Assembly: GCA_026874595.1 (NCBI GenBank)
Contig: CM049306.1
Location: 97,269,642-97,333,641 of the forward strand
Source of the DNA: Sipunculus nudus
Taxonomy: Eukaryota; Annelida; Sipuncula; Golfingiida; Sipunculidae
Direction of reading: 5' to 3'
Length of the DNA: 64,000 bases
A model generated the notes under the pieces. That model saw nothing but the letters and a program-made list of their open reading frames with translations, ran no database searches and was not told the origin of the DNA. The stretch's first letter is position 1, and each line of letters opens with the position of its first letter. The position numbers and the translations under genes are program-made. Below, piece after piece: positions 8,926-62,815 of this stretch.

Positions 8926-10015
8926 AGAGAAAAAATGCGTAAACTTTAAAAAAAATTTCAGGTGGCTCCACCAGTCTGCAGAAACTAATAAAAAGACTTA
9001 ATGGTCAAAATCCATGCAAAGAAGCATGGTGGTCTCTGGATTAGTTGTTCAGATACTTCAGCTTTTGTATCAAATTTTTCATTATTCTGAGGGAGTCCTA
9101 TAGCAGAGAGTCCTATGGAGGATATGGGTAACAGAGACCTAATTTCAGGTTAGTTATTGAGATACTGGAGTTTTTGTATCAAATTTTTCATTATTCTAGG
9201 GGCTATTTGGAGCCATACAGCTTAATGGATATGGGAAACAACCTAATTTCTGGTTTCCATGGAGACTTTTCACAGGTCTCTCAGAGTGTCAAGAATGAAG
9301 ATTCTAGGTCCAGTCTTTACGATTTGTGCCCTGTTAACAGATGTCCACATTTTTATAGGCCTCAAAAATAGAGAAAAAATTCGTAAAAAATTGAAAAATA
9401 CAGGTGGTGCCACCAGTCTGCAGGAACTGATGGAACATCTCATGATCAATATGTATGCCAAAAATCATGACCATCAGTGATGTAGTTAATCAGATATTTA
9501 AGTTTTTGTATGATATTTTTCACTATTCCGGGGGTACTTTGGGGCACCATAGCTCAAAGGATATGGGTAACAGAGACCTAATTTCTGATTTCCATGGAGA
9601 CTTTTAATAGATCTCTCAGAATGTCAAGAATGAAGATTCTAGGTCCAGTCTTTACGATTTGTGCCCTGTTAACAGATGTCCACATTTTTAAAGGTCTCAA
9701 AAATATAGAAAAAAAATTCGTAAAAAATCGAAAAATACAGGTGGCGCCACCAGTCTGCAGGAACTGATGGAACATCTCATGATCAATATGTATGCCAAAA
9801 ATCATGACCATCAGTGATGTAGTTAATGAGATATTTAAGTTTTTGTATGAAATTTTTCACTATTCTGGGGGGTACTTTGGGGCCCCATAGCTCGAAGGAT
9901 ATGGGTAACAGAGACCTAATTTCTGGTTTCCAAGGAGATTTTTCATGGACCTCTCAGAATGTCAAGTTAAAAGTTTCTAGGTACAGCGGTTACGATTTGT
10001 GCCTGGTTAATGGAC
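8926..10015 (+). repeat. F1 core: ~335-bp tandem units
   Basis: Three to four units run head to tail. The landmark ACAGGTGGYGCCACCAGTCTGCAGGAACTG begins near 9401 and 9738 (337 bp apart), with a diverged first unit near 8958. Each unit also has GGATATGGGTAACAGAGACC and GATTCTAGGTCCAG. The last unit changes near 9960 to lead into the microsatellite, just as the last unit at 57510-57565 does. The same unit family forms the array at 54935-57565. Confidence 0.85.
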
Positions 10016-10637: not shown

Positions 10638-10971
10638 AAAATCATTTTTATGTTGTCAGAATGCCAGTCTTATAAACATCAATGAAACAGCACATAACAA
10701 ATTTACTTTTAATATAACCGCCCAATCTACTTAACAGTAAAGCCAGTGATGATATGATGCAATTTGATAATTTTTCATATCGACAGTGTATGTAATAGGT
10801 AATGAAGGCATTTACTGGGTATATGAAGACAGAGTCTAAACTCTGGCACAGAGAAATGCACTCCTTCATTTCCTGATATAGATATTAAGTGTTCAAGCTT
10901 ATAACTCCTTATAACTCCTACCTTTACCATACATAGGCTGGGGTGTAATGTACCTCCAGGGAGCCACTTAC

Positions 10972-11176
10972 CTGGGGAGCGGACATTTTCCACTTAGACG
11001 TTCATCCTCCACATATTTGATGAGGACTTCCTTACAGCGCTGCAGGAGGGAGCTGACAGCCAGTTTGGTGATAGATCCCTCTTCTGTGGGGCATTTACTG
11101 AGGAAAGAAAACTGGAGAAGAGTCTCAAAGCAGGCCTTTGCAAATTCCTCTCGCAACTTGCGGCTAGAGTCTGTGT
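10972..11176 (-). CDS. MON2: MON2 exon (window exon 9)
   Basis: Residues 489-556 and part of 557. The acceptor is atttcctttgcag and the donor CCCCAG|gtaagtgg. The exon reads DTDSSRKLREEFAKACFETL, LQFSFLSKC and later VEDERLSGKCPLP. These are hallmark stretches of the MON2 C-terminal domain (LREEF-x-K-x-CFETLLQFSF and EDERLSGKCPLPR in animal homologues). It opens with two bases completing an Asp codon from the previous exon and closes in phase 2. The opposite-strand 139-codon ORF over this exon is a shadow. Confidence 0.97.
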
Positions 11177-12783
11177 CTGCAAAGGAAATAGTTCCAATTA
11201 TGCAATCCATTTGGTCCAATAAGGTGCTCAGTAAAGCCATGTTAGCCCCTGCAGTACGAAACATCCTCTGTTTTAAAGAATTCTCTGCACACTTAGCTAA
11301 ACCATTTGGGTTAATGATCATTCTCCTTGGGGCTTGGGCCAATGTGTTCAATAAGAACTTAACATAAACAGAGTTAGCTGAACCCATTTGTACTAATATA
11401 GTTATATTTAACACATTGCTTTCATCTACACTGACCAGTAATACTTAAATATCAACCAGCTGCTTGGGATGACTATGGGACAACAGAAAGTGTCTCATAC
11501 TGGATTTTAATTCACATATGAGAAAAAAAAATTTTTGCCCCCACATAAACAGCGATGAAACTCATATGTCTTTATTTAGATGCAAGGTATTTAACTTTTA
11601 AAAATGTTATGGTGACACAATATAGTTCTTCTCATACACATAAGGAATGCATATCTTTACCCAACCATACAACTCTTTTAATTTAAACAACTTCTGATCA
11701 CCTGCAATTTATATTTATGAAAATTTATATTTATACAACCCTGTGATCCACGATCTGTTAGATACACCATCTTTCTATGCCCAAATCTTTCATGGGAGTT
11801 TCGCAATATGGGTTATATACGCATTGAAGTCAAGCATATAGAAACTAAACAGTCACAGAGTGTTATATTATACAAAATACTGCAAATGTCATAATACATT
11901 AGGTAGGAAAAATTACATGTGTGTATAATTAACAATGGATCATTTTGGTAGCAGCCCAGTAAATCATGATATATATGTTTACAATCCTGGCACTGGGTAT
12001 TATCCATGGTACAAATCTAATGGAAATGCTTCTCTTACAAACTGTGGCCTGTCATTGGGTCATATTGTATATAATCACTCTATGTTTACTGGGGTAAGAC
12101 CATTATATGTCACAAGGGCTGTAAGAGGCTTTACAAGTGTAGGTGGTCAGTTATTACTAGAGAAATAAACAGGACAAAACAATGCGCAATGTGATCTCAT
12201 TCCTCAATAACACAGACCAAGTAGGTTAAATGAGATAGAGTGTTAACTCTGTGGTGCCCTGCCAGCCCTCAGATTCCAATGGATTGCTAAGTGAAATTAA
12301 GACATGATAAGCCCAATAACATATTTCTGTAACTATGAAAGGTTACACAAGCAGCATATGCACTGATAGTGATCCAACCTTCTTGCAGAATGTTCCTGAT
12401 TTGTGTAAAGGCAGGTGCTGTCTGTCACTGTGCAGACATTTTGTGCTGCTTGAAATTAGGTGGATCTGATTAAGTTAGGTAAAAAATGTTTCAAATATTC
12501 AGGTCAATTTTAGGATGCTTGCAGACACTTGCATGACTATCTGCCACAATATATACAGTGGAACCTCTCCTTACAGGCACCTCTGTAATAAGGGCACCTC
12601 CTATCCCATGGATAAAACCTTGCTATTTATGGCTGAGTCAACACTCAGCAACATATCTTCTTTAATGATATTAAGAGTTATAGACATTCAACTGGTAATA
12701 CATTATATATCTTCAAGACTACAAAGGCCAAATTTGTGGTAGGTAGGGGGTCAGTGACCACTACAGAAATAAATAGTACAAAC
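11177..12783. other. Intron, no gene; possible MITE end at 12553
   Basis: AT-rich unique intron sequence. At 12553 the sequence CAGTGGAACCTC, preceded by TA, resembles the start of pogo/mariner-type MITEs, and GGTCAGTGACCACTAC at 12751-12766 could be an eroded partner end. The arms match poorly, so I do not call an element. Nothing else was recognised. Confidence 0.45.
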
Positions 12784-15466: not shown

Positions 15467-15643
15467 CTGAAATGACATAATGTACACATTATTAAGCCTT
15501 GTGAATCCCGTTTTACAATTTTTAAAATACTCATTAAAAATATAAACATAGCACTGTGGATGAATGTGGTACAAGTAGGAAGCTTGGAAGCTGAAAAATC
15601 TTGATTTGTAAAGTTGCATGGTACAGCCACCAGGTCCTGTGTG

Positions 15644-15790
15644 TGTCATGGTGCACATATATAGGCGTTTAAACTTCCTTGCCAAAGGAGCTGGCTTTTC
15701 TTGGGAAGCAGTTAGAACGCCCGACTCCTGTGCTTGCCATGCAGGTTAGATTACACGATCGGCCGATCAGTCATTTCTCACCCTATGACA
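15644..15790 (+). repeat. TRIM 5' LTR
   Basis: 147 bp, TG...CA with a short TGTCA/TGACA inverted terminus. At the positions of the internal promoter boxes of the other LTR it has TTGGGAAGCAG and GGTTAGATTAC, which have lost several consensus bases, so this copy is the more decayed for that feature. Confidence 0.8.
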
Positions 15791-15792
15791 TT

Positions 15793-15810
15793 TGGCGCCC
15801 AATGTGTGAC
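15793..15810 (+). other. TRIM primer binding site (tRNA-Lys)
   Basis: TGGCGCCCAATGTGTGAC lies two bases inside the 5' LTR. It differs at three positions from the complement of the last 18 bases of animal tRNA-Lys(CTT) including CCA. Position and sequence both fit first-strand priming. Confidence 0.75.
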
Positions 15811-15884
15811 TTGGGAGTGGTGGTTTGTGTTCACAGATGTGACCCCCGGGATGTTTACCCTGCGTTCTGAGGACAAAACATCCT

Positions 15885-15899
15885 CAGGGAGGGGGTGAG
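15885..15899 (+). other. TRIM polypurine tract
   Basis: CAGGGAGGGGGTGAG directly abuts the TGTCA start of the 3' LTR. One T interrupts the purines, as is common in old copies. It is the expected plus-strand priming site. Confidence 0.6.
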
Positions 15900-16046
15900 T
15901 GTCATGGTGAACATATATAAGCATTCCAACTTCCTTGCCAAAGAAGCTTGCTTTTCTGGCAAAGCGGAGAGAATGTCGGCCTCCTGTGCTTGCGGTGCTG
16001 GTTTGATTCCACGATTGGCCCATCAGTCATTTCTCACCCTGTGACA
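15900..16046 (+). repeat. TRIM 3' LTR with tRNA-like pol III promoter
   Basis: 147 bp, same ends as the 5' LTR. It contains TGGCAAAGCGG (15957-15967), a full match to the tRNA A-box consensus TRGCNNAGYGG, and GGTTTGATTCC (16000-16010), one base off the B-box GGTTCRANNCC. Their start-to-start spacing is 43 nt, as in a tRNA gene. The LTR therefore looks partly tRNA-derived. Confidence 0.7.
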
Positions 16047-16309
16047 TGTGCTATTTTACGTTTTGCACAACTGGGGAATCTGTAATTTATTAATAGCCAT
16101 GGACATTAATCCATTACTTGTCCAATGGTCTGTGTTACAGCAATGTCTAATATCTAAACCCATGACATTTTCTCTATAAATTAAAGAAAAGGAAAACTAT
16201 ATTTATTTCTACTGTTAAATAAAACACTTCCATGACTGATAAACATACGAGGTTCCAGGACACTAGATGGAAGCATGGCTGAGAAAATGATGTGCCTGCT
16301 GTCATTTGA

Positions 16310-17881: not shown

Positions 17882-18770
17882 AACTAGATATTTCTTGGCA
17901 CCGCAGGTGCCATAGTATCCCCAGATAATTAATCCCCCCCCTTTAAGAATAGGCCCCCCATCTTCAGCAACAATTAATATTGGACCACTCTCATAGAAAA
18001 AGTCACTCTCATTGAAAAGGTCATGACCCCAATTTCAATATACATCACCCCTAACCCATGTCTATGTATATGCATAATATGAAAGATATCTGTCCATTAG
18101 TTTTTGACTTATAATGCTCACAGTACTGTAAAGTGGCAATGATGGGGTATTAAACGGCACAAAAACAAGTAAAAGAATAACAGGTGTCGCTACCTGTTTC
18201 CAGTACATGACAACACTATCCAAGATCTTCGATCAAGTTGATTTTTGGACCATTCCATGCATCCCTTATTGAAATATTAATGATTTTGTGTAATTTTCAC
18301 CATATATGGCAATATTCAAGGTCAAGGCCACTCTCATAGGAAAGGTTATGACCCCAATTTATATATACATCATCCCATAACCCATGTCTATGTATATGCA
18401 TAATATGAAAAATCTGTCCATTTGTTTTTGACTTATAATGCTCACAGTACTGTTAAGTGGCAATGATTGGGGTATTAAACGTCACGAAAACAAGTAAAAG
18501 AATAACAGGTGGCGCCATCAGTATCCGGTACATGACAATACTATCCAAGATCTTTGGTCAAGTTGATTTTTGGACCAATCCATGCATCCCTTATTGAGAT
18601 ATTAATGATTTTGTGTGATTTTCACCATATATGGTACTATTCAAGGTCAAAGCCACTCTCATAGGAAAGGTCATGACCATATTTTTTGAGTTTTCGCGCC
18701 AACAAGATTTATATGCGGCGGCGGGACTGGTATGAAAACATAGTGTCCCCCGACTTTGTTTTGGGATACA
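17882..18770 (+). mobile_element. F5 element, copy 1
   Basis: The head reads AACTAGATATTTC and the hairpin TGGCACC-GCA-GGTGCCA, then CATAGTATCCCC. Two core units of about 329 bp follow, with landmarks AGGTGTCGCTACCTGTTTCC near 18181 and AGGTGGCGCCATCAG near 18510. Each has CCACTCTCATAG, AAGGTCATGACC and TATGTATATGCATAATATGAAAG. The tail has GCGGCGGCGGG, then CATAGTGTCCCCCGACTTTG and TTTTGGGA. CATAGTRTCCCC thus occurs near both ends. Copies 2 and 3 are at 45440-46190 and 62007-62815. No protein is encoded. Confidence 0.75.
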
Positions 18771-43156: not shown

Positions 43157-43215
43157 TTTATTCTCAGTAGCAGCATCAGTGGTTTACATCAGTGGTCAAT
43201 ACATCACCTTCCAGG
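43157..43215 (+). other. bZIP gene 5' UTR part of coding exon
   Basis: A strong acceptor, a pyrimidine tract ending TTTTTTCAG at 43156, opens the exon. In-frame TAG at 43168-43170 lies between it and the first ATG, so the reading frame cannot extend upstream and this part is 5' UTR. One or more upstream non-coding exons must exist but were not located. Confidence 0.6.
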
Positions 43216-43899
43216 ATGCTGAGCATTATTCCGTTTGATCACGGTCAGCGTGAGAGTACTGATCGGCCATTTAAGACATATACAAGACCACCAGCAAGTG
43301 CTTCTTCATCTTCCTTATATAGACCTTTCCAAACACCTAGTTTAGTTGGCCATCTTGGTTTGCAAGGAAACAGTATGGATGTCCGTCCCCCACCACACAT
43401 GCACAATGCTGCAAACAACCTGATGGACATTTCACAACATGGACAAATGCGTGCATCTGGTTACGGTGCAAAACACGACATGACGGCTAATTTTTGTGGC
43501 TTTTTACCATCCATGACATACAGTAATGGGGATCTGCGATCCAGTGCGAGCATGACGGCACAGTCTGATTCTTTTATTCCGTCATCACCGTCAGTCGGAT
43601 CTAGTGACGATATTCCAGATAACAACAAGTTGAAAACTGATGACAATGAGGAGTTAAAAGTTCCGCCTAAAAAGAGACCTCACTGTGTGCCAGAAGAAAT
43701 GAAGGATGCTGCTTACTGGGACAAAAGGAAAAAGAACAATGAATCAGCAAAACGATCTCGAGATGCACGACGGATGAAAGAAGAACAAATTGCCATGCGG
43801 GTTGTTTACCTTGAACAAGAAAACCTGCAACTGCGTACTGAGGTCTCATTACTCAAAAGTGAAATTGAAAAGCTCAGGTGTATGTTATATAATTCATAA
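43216..43899 (+). CDS. PAR/NFIL3/CES-2-like bZIP transcription factor
   Basis: A 227-residue nuclear DNA-binding protein in one coding exon. Residues 1-150 are Ser/Pro/His-rich and disordered-looking, with [10 protein letters not shown] near the start. From about residue 150 comes [17 protein letters not shown], the extended segment seen just before the basic region in HLF/TEF/DBP and relatives. The basic region is [14 protein letters not shown], with the invariant Asn at 174 and Arg at 182. A zipper follows with heptad Leu at 199, 206, 213 and 220, and the protein ends LRCMLYNS. Such factors dimerise on TTAYGTAA-type sites. The start is the first ATG after an in-frame stop; GTG at 43192 is not needed. 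It lies on the opposite strand within a MON2 intron. It could be a CES-2, Giant-like or PAR orthologue; the family is certain, the subfamily is not. Confidence 0.95.
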
Positions 43900-45439: not shown

Positions 45440-46190
45440 CATATATATATATATAAACCCCTCTTTGACATATATTTTTGGTAAAGAAACTGAAATCTTC
45501 AGCAACAATTAATATCAGACCACTCTCATAGAAAAGGTCACTCTCATAGAAAAGGTCATGACCCCACTGTCCAAGATCTTCGGTCAAGTTGATTTTTGGA
45601 CCAATCAATGCATCCCTTATTGAGATACTAATGATTTTGTGTGATTTTCACCATATATGGCAATATTCAAGGTCAAGGCCACTCTCATAGAAAAAGTCAT
45701 GACCCCAATTTACATTAACATTATCCCATAACTCATATCTATGTATATGCATAATATAAAAGAAATCTGTCCATTAGTTTTTGACTTATGATGCTCACAG
45801 TACTGTCAAGTGTCAATTTTGGGGGTATTAAAAGGCACGAAAACAAGTAAACAATAATAGGTGGCACCAGCAGTTTCTGGAACATGACAACCCTATCCAT
45901 GATCTTCAATCAACTTGATTTTGGGATCAATCCATGCAAGATTTCTTGAGATATTAAAGAATTTGTGTGATTTTCCCAAAAATTGGACCTATTCAAGGTC
46001 AAGGACACTCCTAATCAAGGTCATGACCTCATTTTAAAGAGGCGCCGTCCTCTCACCCATATCTATACATATTCCAAGTTTGGTAAAGATCCGTGAAATA
46101 TTTTTTGAGTTATCGTGCCAACAAGATTTATATGCGGCGGCAGTGGCGGTGGCAGCAGGAACAGTATGAAAACTTGTATCCCAGACTTTG
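45440..46190 (+). mobile_element. F5 element, copy 2 (head missing)
   Basis: Starts in a TA microsatellite and lacks the AACTAGA head. From TCTTCAGCAACAATTAATAT (about 45497) it follows copies 1 and 3. The palindrome site is degraded to AGGTGGCACCAGCAG (about 45861). The tail TTATATGCGGCGGC...GGCAGCAGGAACAGTATG is better preserved than in copy 1. It ends less than 80 bp before the MON2 exon at 46265. Confidence 0.7.
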
Positions 46191-54934: not shown

Positions 54935-57565
54935 AAATACAGGTGGCTCCACCAGTCTGCAGAAACTAATAAAAACACTTACAAACATCAATATCCATGC
55001 AAAGAATCATGGTGATCTCCCCATTAGTTGTTCATATACTTCAGCTTTTGTAGCAAATTGTCCATTATTCTGAGGGATACTTCGGAGTCCTATAGCTTGA
55101 AGGATATGGGTAACAGAGACCTAATTTTAAGTTTCCACAGGCACTTTTCATGGGCCTTCTTGCATGACAAGAATGAAGATTCTAGGTCCAGTTGTTGCGA
55201 TTTGTACCCTGTTGACAGATAACCACATCTTTAAAGGTATCAAAAAAAGAGAAAAAAAATCGTAAAAATTTGAAAAAAATAGAGGTGGCGCACCCAGTCT
55301 GCAGAAACTGATGGAACAGGTCATGATCAATATGTATGCCGAAAATCATGACCATCAGTGTTGTAGTTATTGAGATACTGCAGTTTTTGTATCAAATTTT
55401 CCATTATTCTGGGGGGTAATTTGGAGCCATACAGCTTAAAGAATATGGGTAACAGAGACCTAATTTCAGGTTTCCATGGAGACTTTTCATGGGTCTCCCT
55501 GTGTGTCAAGAATGAAGATTCTAGGTCCAGTTTTAATGATTTGTGCCCTGTTAACAGATGTTCATAACTTGAAAGATCTCAAACAAGAGAAAAAATTCGT
55601 AAAAAAACCCGAACAAATACAGGTGGTGCCACAAGTCTGCAGAAACTGATGAAACACTCCATGATCAATATCCATGAAAACAATTATGATGATCTCTGCA
55701 TTAGTTGTTCAGATACTTCAGCTTTTGTATCAAATTTTCCATTATTCTGAGCTGTACTTTGGAGTGCCATAGCTCAAAGGATATGGGTAACAGAGACCTA
55801 ATTTCAGGTGTCCATGGAGACTTATCATGGGTCTCCCTGTGTGTCAACAATGAAGATTCTAGGTCCAGTCCTTACGATTTGTTCCCTGTTGACAGATAAC
55901 TACATCCTGAAAGGTCTCGAAAATAGAGAAAAAAAAATTGTGAAAATTTGAAAAAATACAGGTGGCACAACCAGTCTGCAGGTACTGATGAAACACCTCT
56001 TGATCAATATGTATGCCAAAAATCATGACCATCAGTGTTGTAGTTATTGAGATGTTGCAGTTTGTTTTTATCAAATTTTCCATTATTCTGGGGGGGTTAT
56101 TGGGAGCCCCCCCATAGCTCAAAGGATATGGGTAACAGAGACCTTATTTCAGGTTTCCATGCAGACTTTTTATGGACCTCTCAGTGTGTCAAGAATGAAG
56201 ATTCTAGGTCCAGTCTTTATGATTTGTGCCCTGTTAACAGCTGTTCACATTTTTAAATTCGTAAAAAATCGAAAAATTCAGGTTGCGCCACCAGTCTGCA
56301 GGAAGTGATGGAACATCTCATGATCAATACGTATGCCAAAAATCATGACCATCAGTCAAGTAGTTAATGAGATATTGAAGTTTTTGTATGAAATTTTTGA
56401 CTTTTCTGGGGGGTACTTTGGGGCCCCATAGCTCGAAGGATATGGGTAACAGAGATCTAATTTATGGTTTCTAGGGAGACTTTTAATAGGTTTCTCAGTG
56501 TGTCGAGAATGAAGATTCTAGGTCCAGCGGTTAGGATTTGTGCCACTTTAACAGATGTTCACATTTTTTAAGGTCTCAAAAATAGAGAAAAAAATTTGTA
56601 AAAAATCAAAAAATACAGGTGGCGCCACCAGTCTGCAGGAAGTGATGGAACATCTCATGATCAATATGTATGCCAAAAATCATGACCATCAGTCAAGAAG
56701 TTAATGAGATATTGAAGTTTTTGTATGAAATTTTTGACTTTTCTGGGGGGTACTTTGGGGCCCCATAGCTCGAAGGATATGGGTAACAGAGATCTAATTT
56801 ATGGTTTCTAGGGAGACTTTTAATAGGTTTCTCAGTGTGTCGAGAATGAAGATTCTAGGTCTAGCGGTTAGGATTTGTGCCACTTTAACAGATGTTCACA
56901 TTTTTAAAGGTCTCAAAAATAGAGAAAAAAATGTGTAAAAAATCGAAAAATACAGGTGGTGCCACCAGTCTGCAGGAAGTGATGGAACATCTCATGATCA
57001 ATATGTATGCCAAAAATCATGACCATCAGTCAAGTAGTTAATGAGATATTGAAGTTTTTGTATGAAATTTTTGACTTTTCTGGGGGGTACTTTGGGGCCC
57101 CATAGCTCGAAGGATATGGGTAACAGAGACCTAATTTCTGGTTTCCAAGGAGATTTTTCATGGACCTCTCAGTGTATCAAGAATTAAGATTCTAGGTCTA
57201 GGCTTTACGATTTGTGCCTTGTTAACAGATGTTCACATTTTTAAAGGTCTCAAAAATAGAGAAAAAAATTTGTAAAAAATAGAAAAATACAGGTGGCGCC
57301 ACCAGTCTGCAGGAAGTGATGGAACATTTCATGATCAATATGTATGCCAAAAATCATGACCATCAGTCAAGTAGTTAATGAGATATTGAAGTTTTTGTAT
57401 GAAATTTTTGACTCTTCTGGGGGGTACTTTGGGGCCCCATAGCTCGAAGGATATGGGTAACAGAGACCTAATTTCTGGTTTCCAAGGAGATTTTTCATGG
57501 ACCTCTCAGAATCCCAAGTTACAAGGTTCTAGGTTCAGCGGTTATGATTTGTGCCTGGTTAACGG
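54935..57565 (+). repeat. 335-340-bp tandem array, F1 core
   Basis: The landmark AGGTGGCGCCACCAGTCTGC or variants starts near 54942, 55282, 55621, 55961, 56280, 56617, 56955 and 57291, a spacing of about 320-340. Units from 56280 rightward are nearly identical to each other, while those to the left are clearly diverged. A final partial unit with altered sequence (GGTTCAGCGGTTATGATTTG) joins the microsatellite. Short overlapping ORFs here are by-products. Confidence 0.9.
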
Positions 57566-57761
57566 ACGGACAGACGGACGACGGACAAAGAGTGATTGCT
57601 ATAGCTCAGATGACTTTCAGTCAGCTGAGCTAAAAAACAAGGTGAAACATAGTTCCTGAGACAACAGAACTAGCAGCTCACTGAAAGGTGTATCATTGTT
57701 GAAACAAGTGACTGCCCGGAGCTTCTGAAATGTGAGTGTTGTAAGCGTAAGTCATCTTTAC

Positions 57762-58375
57762 CTTATGCAGTGCTTTAACGGCTGTCAAGATGGCCTCCTG
57801 GAGTGATGTCAGGTTATTATCCTGCGGCATTATGAAGGGTGAGGAATCCGTGTGGACTGGTACCGCTAGCGCTCGCTGAAGGACAAGCGACAACTTCTGG
57901 AGATCCGCTGCCACAAAGCGGCTCTTGATGTGTTCGTACAAGGCCGGGAATATCTGTATAAGAGCCGTCAAAAATGGCTGGGAAGGAATGTATGCACTTG
58001 CTGGTTTGGCCATGTCTGGAGGGGTCGTGACCTTTGTGCCTATACTGAGCCACACTTTCCAGGCATTTGACCACAAAGCCATATCTTCAACAGGAGTGTC
58101 ACTTTGATCACCAGGGGGTGCCACCTCTGTTGTTCCTTGTGTCGTCTGCAGCTCTCTCTGCTGATCTGTTCGCTGTATTTTTTCCTCTACAGGAGGGATC
58201 AGTTCTTTGGGGTTCCTGTTGCCAAATAATTGGACCCACTCATCCTTGGAATCTTTTTTTATCTGTAAGATTTCTTGGAAGCTCTTGAGTGCTGCCAAGG
58301 ACACCTCAGCAACCCCACACAGGGCTGCTGCCTCAATGTACTCCAAAAACAGAGCCCAGGCTCGTGGAAAATCAT
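57762..58375 (-). CDS. MON2: MON2 exon (window exon 2), 614 bp
   Basis: Residues 69-273. The acceptor is tgtccttgtag and the donor CATAAG|gtaaagat. With the G carried over it opens DDFPRAWALFLEYIEAAALC, then VSLAALKSFQEILQI, a conserved MON2 stretch. A variable Gln/Pro/Thr-rich linker (about residues 110-160) leads to LWSNAWKVWLSIG, SQPFLTALIQIFPALYEHIK and LQEAILTAVKALHK. It is the longest exon in the window and is probably a fusion of exons separate in vertebrates. The frame is open from end to end. Plus-strand ORFs over it are shadows. Confidence 0.97.
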
Positions 58376-59827
58376 CTACAAGGACAGTGACAGAGATTTT
58401 TAGATATTTACAATATCTAAATATTCACAAAGAATTTCATGAAATCCACTAGATTTTTGTTCAGTTATCATGGCACAGCCAAAGGCTGGCATATATCTGA
58501 TCTCATTGAAAAAGCATGAATTTAGCTTGAGTTGAACTTGGATGAGACACTTTATTGGTAAGTATAGTGAGTTTTGTGGAATTTCCATCAAAGGCCTTGT
58601 AAGTTATCACAGGGACACAAAATGTTACTGGAATGACAGTCAAAGGGTAAACATGTACCATAATATGTCCTGGCTAACACAGGCATATCAAGGAGTTTAT
58701 AACAAATGGATTCCCAACTCGTGAAGCTCTGCCAGGACTGGTGTGTCAGTCATGCCCTAATTGCAATTAAGACATGATCAGTCCATTACCCAAGTTGAGT
58801 GCCTATTGTACCGTAGTATTAGGCACAGGTGCTGCACGGCCTTTGATATGGCGAGGCTGCTAGATCTTACTGACACAGTCCGCTGATGCTCGTCAGGCTG
58901 AGAGTGATATATTCAGTAACTGAGCAGTGAATCGCTGGAATAACATTGACCAGAAATATGAATGCACATTTTGTTTTCTTTAGTTAAGAAATATGTGCAA
59001 TAGGTATATTTAGACAGGTCTCATGTTGAGTAATCACTGGAGCGATTTTGGGACAGATGCAGTCACTCTGCATCAGTATCTGCCATGATACATGACAGAA
59101 CATTACCACTGGGAAATGTATACCCTTTTTCCTTGAATAATTTATTGGATTTTTATTAGTTCATATCAGTCTACACACTTCTGAAAAAAATTAATAATTA
59201 GACTTGTTTCATTCTATTTCGTGGATAACAAAATTCTATTCGCCCATGTACAGATGAATTTCATTTTCATTGAAAACTGTTAGCCCTAGCCTGCTTCAGC
59301 ACTGATGGCATTGTTCTTGTATTATCGCCCATGTTTACCGCTGCCCAGCAATAGCTCAGGCATCTTTAGCAATGACAGCTTCATACACGTTTGCATGCTA
59401 CACGATGTATATATGAAAAGGTATATTGTATATCATGTAAACTTTTGATTGTTCCAATTTTTAAATTAAATACAAAATATTAATTTGAGGAGAAACTAAC
59501 GCGTTAGTTCCCTCTTGGGGTCTCCAGAAACTAATGGGCGATTCTGAAGTCACACCAAAGGGGGGATTCTCATGCTGTATCAATTAGTGCCTGGCTTATC
59601 AGCGGCTTCTCTCTGTGCCTTTGAGCAGCAAGTTTATGACCCTGTCAGCAACATTCAACATGGCCAGATGCCAAAGCTGGTACTCCATTTGTTAAAAACC
59701 CCTTTGCCATGAACAAAGAATTAAACAAAGTGTATCAAATGCATGTTAAATTTGGTGTTAGGGGTTTTTGGTGTTGTATTCAACACACTTGTAGTGTGAA
59801 AACAGTTAAAGACAAGTAGAACCTTAC
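58376..59827. other. Intron, nothing recognised
   Basis: Unique sequence without a known repeat family or domain-bearing ORF. 59498-59560 contains AACGCGTTAGTTCCCTC and AACTAATGGGCG, an imperfect local repeat only. Confidence 0.45.
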
Positions 59828-62006: not shown

Positions 62007-62815
62007 AACTAGATATTTCTTGGCACTGCAGGTGCCATAGTATCCCCAGACAATTAATCCCCCCCCCCTTTAAGAATAGCCCCCCCCCCCATCTTCAGCA
62101 ACAATTAATATCAGACCACACTCAAAGAAAAGGTCACTCTCAAGGTCATGACCCTTAATTTCTATATACATCATCCCTTAACCCATGTGTATGTATATGC
62201 ATAATATGAAAGAAATCTGTCCATTAGTTTTTGACTTGTAATGCTCACAGTACTGTTAAGTGGCAATGATGGGGTATTAAACGGCACAAAAACAAGTAAA
62301 AGAATAACAGGTGGCGCCACCTGTTTCCGGTACATGATAATACTATCCAAGATCTTCGGTCAAGTTGATTTTTGTTCCAATAACTGCATCCCTTATTGAG
62401 ATATTAATGATTTTGTGTAATTTTCACCATATATGGTAATATTTTAAGGTCAAGGCCACTCTAATAGGAAAGGTCATGACCCCAATTTATATATACATCA
62501 TCCCATAACACATGTATATGTATATGCATAATATGAAAGAACTCTGTCCATTAGTTTTTTACTTATAATGCTGACAGTATTGTTAAGTGGCAATGATGGG
62601 TATATTAAACGGCATGAAAACAAATAAAAGAATAACAGGTGGCGCCACCTGTTTCTGGTACATGACATTTCTAGCCAAGATCTTCGGTCAATTTGATTTT
62701 TGGACCAATAACTGCATCCCTTATTGAGATATTAATGATTTGTGTGATTTTCACCATATATGGCAATATTCAAGCCATATCATCCCATAACCCATATCTA
62801 TGTACGGGTATTTCT
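62007..62815 (+). mobile_element. F5 element, copy 3 (tail missing)
   Basis: The head AACTAGATATTTC, hairpin TGGCACTGCAGGTGCCA and CATAGTATCCCC match copy 1. Two 328-bp units follow with exact palindromes ACAGGTGGCGCCACCTGT starting near 62307 and 62635. The third unit breaks off near 62815 and the GCGGCGGC tail is lacking. An expanded C-run lies in the head. Confidence 0.75.

Follow-up and report, generated by a model that had tools for sequence, protein, structure and literature searches.

TRIMs whose LTRs resemble tRNAs have been described in fungi, in animals and in a plant, and were named Helenus (TRIMp3) by Kojima (2024; PMC10886601). Animal Helenus elements show 4-bp duplications and Gypsy-like primer sites, and from the similarity of these primer sites Kojima inferred that the animal elements are mobilised by Gypsy; transcription of Helenus by pol III was also inferred and is unvalidated (PMC10886601). 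The initial annotation of the locus studied here had proposed an animal TRIM with a tRNA-type LTR as a parallel to the plant TRIM Cassandra. Such a TRIM is indeed present, but the kind of element is not new because it is the one that Kojima 2024 named Helenus (PMC10886601). We read the element in the 64,000-nucleotide stretch that was analysed (the window) as a degenerate, old copy of a TRIM of the Helenus type, about 417 bp long when complete, whose LTR would carry a tRNA-like internal pol III promoter, and we put the probability of this reading at roughly 0.85.

The two 147-bp repeats, their TG...CA ends (TGTCA at the start and TGACA at the end of each LTR), the purine tract, the TGTG target duplication and the total length of 403 bp, all of which had been noted beforehand, were borne out, with coordinates exact to the base (Table 1). 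The LTRs are identical at 122 of 147 positions; the 25 differences comprise 11 transitions and 14 transversions (K2P 0.193, BLAST E 9e-40). The purine tract GGGAGGGGG adjoins the 3' LTR on its 5' side, and a TATA-like stretch, ATATATAA or ATATAA, occupies LTR positions 13-20.

Table 1. Features of the window element, with positions counted from the first nucleotide of the window.
Feature	Position	Strand	Remarks
Target site duplication, left copy	15640..15643		TGTG
5' LTR	15644..15790	+	147 bp; TGTCA...TGACA; boxes A and B decayed (best 5 mismatches)
Interior	15791..15899	+	Non-coding; 109 bp, shorter than the roughly 126 bp of many other copies
Primer-binding site	15793..15810	+	tRNA-Lys type; matches TGGCGCCCAACGTGGGGC, the site intact in six other copies, at 15 of 18 bases
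Purine tract region	15888..15899	+	GGGAGGGGGTGAG; immediately 5' of the 3' LTR
3' LTR	15900..16046	+	147 bp; 83% identity with the 5' LTR
TTTT run	15951..15954	+	Just 5' of box A, at about LTR position 53; possible pol III terminator (a guess)
Box A	15957..15967	+	TGGCAAAGCGG; in the 3' LTR
Box B	16000..16010	+	GGTTTGATTCC; in the 3' LTR; one mismatch to GGTTCGANTCC
Target site duplication, right copy	16047..16050		TGTG

Two exon-like frames matching Mon2_C (10968-11444 and 57693-58424) flank the element on the opposite strand. Because it falls between them, the element probably lies within an intron of MON2. A bZIP-domain frame of 242 codons from stop to stop (43171-43899, plus strand), perhaps a nested gene, is also located between the opposite-strand MON2-like exons; we take the MON2 and bZIP sequences of the window to be invertebrate-like. 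The window further contains a satellite-like repeat with a 337-bp unit at two sites (9151-10010 and 55046-57563) and another repeat, with units of about 325 bp, at three (17999-18678, 45557-46035 and 62142-62770). Its overall CpG observed/expected ratio is 0.28, which is low if the host is an invertebrate.

Searching the host assembly (1.43 Gb, 153 contigs) with a 411-bp query yielded at least 45 matches, a lower bound because 40 of 159 candidates were scored. A 23-bp LTR-end pattern with up to two mismatches was found at 76 places (reversed control, 0), a few of which are LTRs with a different body (e.g. L067). The loci that were read yielded a catalogue of 93 LTR hits or fragments, from which we kept the 52 that were at least 100 bp long with both ends readable and dropped the other 41. 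These 52 resolved into 15 solo LTRs, 15 5' LTRs, 18 3' LTRs and four of tandem type, which have a purine tract before them and a primer site after them (two rows were moved by hand). The search and count of solo against full elements recommended by the initial annotation revealed a family, with 16 same-strand, TRIM-length LTR pairs spaced 239-273 bp apart (K2P 0.021 to 0.27). Full copies (n=14) measure 385-417 bp and have no coding capacity. Two of the TRIM copies, L005 (C6:22773078) and L006 (C6:22669652), lie about 103 kb apart and have flanks and sequence in common, probably as the result of a segmental duplication.

A primer-site-like motif follows 24 of the catalogued LTRs, and in six of the 24 it is exactly TGGCGCCCAACGTGGGGC, 18 bases complementary to the CCA end of tRNA-Lys. 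The tRNA-Lys gene end matching this site is GGTTCGAGCCCCACGTTGGGCG; the host has 13 exact copies of it and seven with one mismatch, 19 of the 20 on C12 near 36 Mb. The proposed tRNA-Lys primer site is thus upheld, at 18 of 18 positions in the six copies.

Informative 4-bp duplications were TGTG in the window, TTTA/TTTA at C5:47349510, TATG at the C12 hybrid described below and TAAA in a sister family on C14; for some LTRs, whether solo or paired, the two flanks differ (e.g. TGTG/TATA). Defining an alternating tract as one in which at least 16 of 19 steps alternate between purine and pyrimidine, we found that 44 of 61 outer LTR edges lie in such tracts, mostly (TA)n or (CA)n, against a background of 51 in 4416 20-mers taken from loci of 2900 bp or more and 21 in 3199 within the window. 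Two edges added later, from the window and C12, are not alternating, which brings the count to 44 of 63; the window copy has no alternating tract beyond its TGTG. For copies within (TA)n a 4-bp duplication is uninformative.

At four loci, Gypsy sequence runs into a TRIM 3' LTR. One of them, C12:53761858-53770371, is an 8.5-kb unit bounded on either side by a TRIM LTR, the two agreeing at 141 of 145 positions; it carries a Gypsy-type primer site and shows a TATG duplication. Its interior contains separate, interrupted frames matching gag (PNMA-like, weak), reverse transcriptase, RNase H and integrase, and its 5' LTR is identical to LTRs of the TRIMs at C6:22669652 and C6:22773078. The Gypsy gag DNA recurs at 88% identity or more over at least 566 bp at seven loci. 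At three of the seven (on C6, C16 and C15), the sequence before the primer site is the end of a different LTR, which is free of boxes (best 7 mismatches). Because these three close gag copies have a different LTR, we dropped an autonomous Gypsy sharing the TRIM LTR in favour of hybrids, and the data suggest that the Gypsy with the box-free LTR is the partner of the TRIM. At one locus (G000, C1:20499670-20505890), many tandem copies of the final part of the Gypsy gag (query 1019-1155) form an array resembling a gag-born satellite.

The junctions differ among the four hybrids. At C12, the tail of the box-free Gypsy LTR immediately precedes the TRIM end, of which about 42 nt are present; at C15, integrase sequence is followed by about 17 nt of TRIM end and then the TRIM LTR; at C9b, the protease region joins about 10 nt of TRIM end; and at C9a, the Gypsy match extends to within 4 nt of the LTR, the join falling on a common AGGGGG. 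A template switch from TRIM RNA to Gypsy RNA within one particle would explain the ends of the C12 unit. More than one event must be assumed, the number of independent ones being uncertain, because the C12 unit also contains another Gypsy LTR tail as well as a piece of gag in inverted orientation, C15 has a Gypsy LTR on its 5' side and TRIM units on its 3' side, and C9a is rearranged, with gag and protease pieces as inverted duplications with arms of 74-383 nt (L033, C9:74140100-74145000). These same features favour an alternative in which the hybrids arose by DNA recombination or rearrangement rather than by template switching in a shared particle, so that they would not identify a helper. 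Against it stand the TRIM LTRs at both ends of the C12 unit, its Gypsy-type primer site and its 4-bp duplication, as expected for one unit inserted by an integrase, and the fact that the four breakpoints differ, yet all fall within 42 nt of the TRIM LTR. We regard recombination as a real, if somewhat doubtful, possibility, and hypothesise, in line with the template-switch reading, that Gypsy acts as helper for the TRIM. Near position 1438 of the C12 hybrid (L031), the second Gypsy LTR tail is followed by a primer-site-like stretch that we take to be of Leu type, so a further element may have contributed.

The tRNA-like boxes were scored against the patterns TRGYNNARNGG (box A) and GGTTCGANTCC (box B). 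In the window 3' LTR, box A has no mismatch and box B one, with starts 43 nt apart; a total of one mismatch at a spacing of 38-50 nt was reached by none of 5000 dinucleotide shuffles of this LTR, the best of which had three. The five mismatches of the window 5' LTR were equalled by 339 of 5000 shuffles, and its boxes are therefore not distinguishable from chance. The full box A and near-perfect box B that the initial annotation placed in the LTR thus hold for the 3' but not for the decayed 5' repeat. Among the 14 full copies, which include the likely duplicated pair L005 and L006, both boxes are perfect in seven 5' LTRs and four 3' LTRs; several copies younger than that of the window combine perfect boxes with the 43-nt spacing. 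As an exact pair, TGGCGAAGCGG and then GGTTCGATTCC, the boxes were located 26 times in the host, and in 24 cases their starts are 43 nt apart (control, 0). As for the tRNA character of the LTR, boxes and spacing were found but a recognised tRNA was not: neither Rfam nor ARAGORN called one in the window element or in the family loci, and we rejected a tRNA gene or recognisable tRNA fold on these grounds.

The module extends beyond this family. A looser pattern of it was found at 1388 places in the host (control, 0), of which we sampled six, non-randomly, the first places listed being all on C1. All six are LTRs of one related family with the ends TGTTAC...GTAACA, including one TRIM pair (L095) and at least one solo LTR, L093, flanked by TTAG on either side; others have downstream a primer-like sequence that is presumably of Pro type. 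A third family, at C14:8323021, has two identical 144-bp LTRs, the TAAA duplication and a primer site that we assume to be of Leu type. Across the three families, 18 of 22 box positions are conserved, compared with 62 of 123 and 61 of 123 positions elsewhere (p 0.009 and 0.005), a result that is supportive rather than decisive because the copies were found by LTR similarity, which favours conserved stretches. It replaces a comparison with L091 (19 of 22 versus 61 of 123, p 0.002), set aside as circular since L091 had been found with a pattern containing the boxes. Inside the family itself, conservation of the boxes does not exceed that of the remaining LTR. The LTR folds into a long hairpin over box A, with z-scores of -2.8, -2.5 (for a stretch offset from its LTR), -0.95 and -1.2 (window); covariation in the hairpin is suggestive only, its five measures being reached by 39 to 84 of 500 shuffles.

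From these LTR boxes, we infer transcription of the TRIM family by pol III. An alternative is an ordinary short pol II LTR in which box A and box B are unused relics of a tRNA or SINE captured long ago. The TATA-like stretch, the unrecognised tRNA fold and the lack of special box conservation inside the family all count in its favour. So does the large sister family, where five of the six sampled LTRs have TTTT some 26 nt downstream of the first base of box B; a pol III transcript would then terminate within the 5' LTR, which speaks against full-length pol III transcripts from this sister family. We nevertheless consider a pol II LTR unlikely, given that the box positions and the 43-nt spacing are kept across three families of otherwise diverged LTRs and that an AWTAAA poly(A) signal is absent from all 14 full elements. 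Outside the T-run near LTR positions 51-57, TTTT is missing from 12 of the 14 elements; this depletion is not significant, since 37% of shuffles of the one element tested lack it too. That the TTTT before box A serves as a pol III terminator giving a short R region, as in Cassandra, is accordingly a guess, also because the LTR of the C14 family has no TTTT and five of the six large-sister LTRs have theirs after box B.

A tandem pair of SINEs, in which each unit would have tRNA-like boxes, is highly improbable: the initial annotation had named single A-tailed inserts lacking a primer-site and purine-tract interior as the pattern that would favour it, and the genome copies instead run LTR-interior-LTR with primer site, purine tract, LTR-type ends and 4-bp duplications, and occur as solo LTRs, and A-tails were seen neither next to the 52 resolved LTRs nor in the six sampled superfamily modules. 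Because of this organisation, the reading as a TRIM with tRNA-like boxes in its LTR is supported and that as a SINE pair is not; a SINE as a single insert, with an A-rich or LINE-like tail and neither primer site nor purine tract, is likewise contradicted by the copies.

In the cycle that we propose for the TRIM, pol III transcription would start in the 5' LTR, run across the interior and continue into the 3' LTR, and a Gypsy with its own box-free LTR would package the RNA. tRNA-Lys at the primer site would prime reverse transcription, the purine tract would prime the second strand, and the Gypsy integrase would insert the DNA, mostly into alternating purine-pyrimidine tracts and with 4-bp duplications. 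More tentatively still, and with the odds somewhat against it, the tRNA-like LTR module (hairpin, box A, box B and fixed spacing) may be a shared promoter cassette, retained while LTR ends and primer tRNA (Lys, Leu-like, Pro-like) changed, whose pol III transcripts are packaged by, and recombine with, a Gypsy of unrelated LTR. If so, the hybrids would physically record which autonomous element mobilises a pol III-driven TRIM.

Among other known systems, Cassandra as described in PMC10886601 also has a pol III promoter inside its LTR; unlike the tRNA-like promoter here, it derives from 5S rRNA, for which Rfam gave no match in the window element or in 16 loci with family copies. The biv-TRIM of bivalves is likewise an animal TRIM with solo repeats and tandem arrays, but in the part of its description available to us it has no clear primer site, repeats of 202-218 bp and no tRNA-like promoter (PMC6934838). 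Complex LTR insertions comparable to the hybrids occur in Triticeae, where the title of the report ascribes them to template switching; they differ in being from plants, and the portion of that report consulted does not mention a pol III TRIM (PMC1950507).

The closest match is Helenus. Like it, the present family consists of short (<1000 bp), non-coding elements with two LTRs, a primer site, here of Lys type, a purine tract, solo LTRs and tRNA-like box A and box B in the LTR; like animal Helenus, it makes 4-bp target duplications, as seen in the window and on C5. Most Helenus elements have a box A beginning TRGCY, unlike the TGGCG or TGGCA found here, where base 5 is G or A rather than a pyrimidine. 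By these structural features, compared with the published description of Helenus, the window element is best classed as a further member. Neither Gypsy hybrids nor insertion into TA/CA tracts, both seen here, are mentioned for Helenus in the main text of PMC10886601, and searches of open-licence PubMed Central turned up no publication describing hybrids between Helenus and Gypsy, or TRIMs of this sort that target microsatellites. The strong target-site bias and the many sister LTRs offer material for testing selection on the promoter module. The hybrid sequences tie a candidate Gypsy partner to the TRIM and are the most useful addition to the picture of Helenus.
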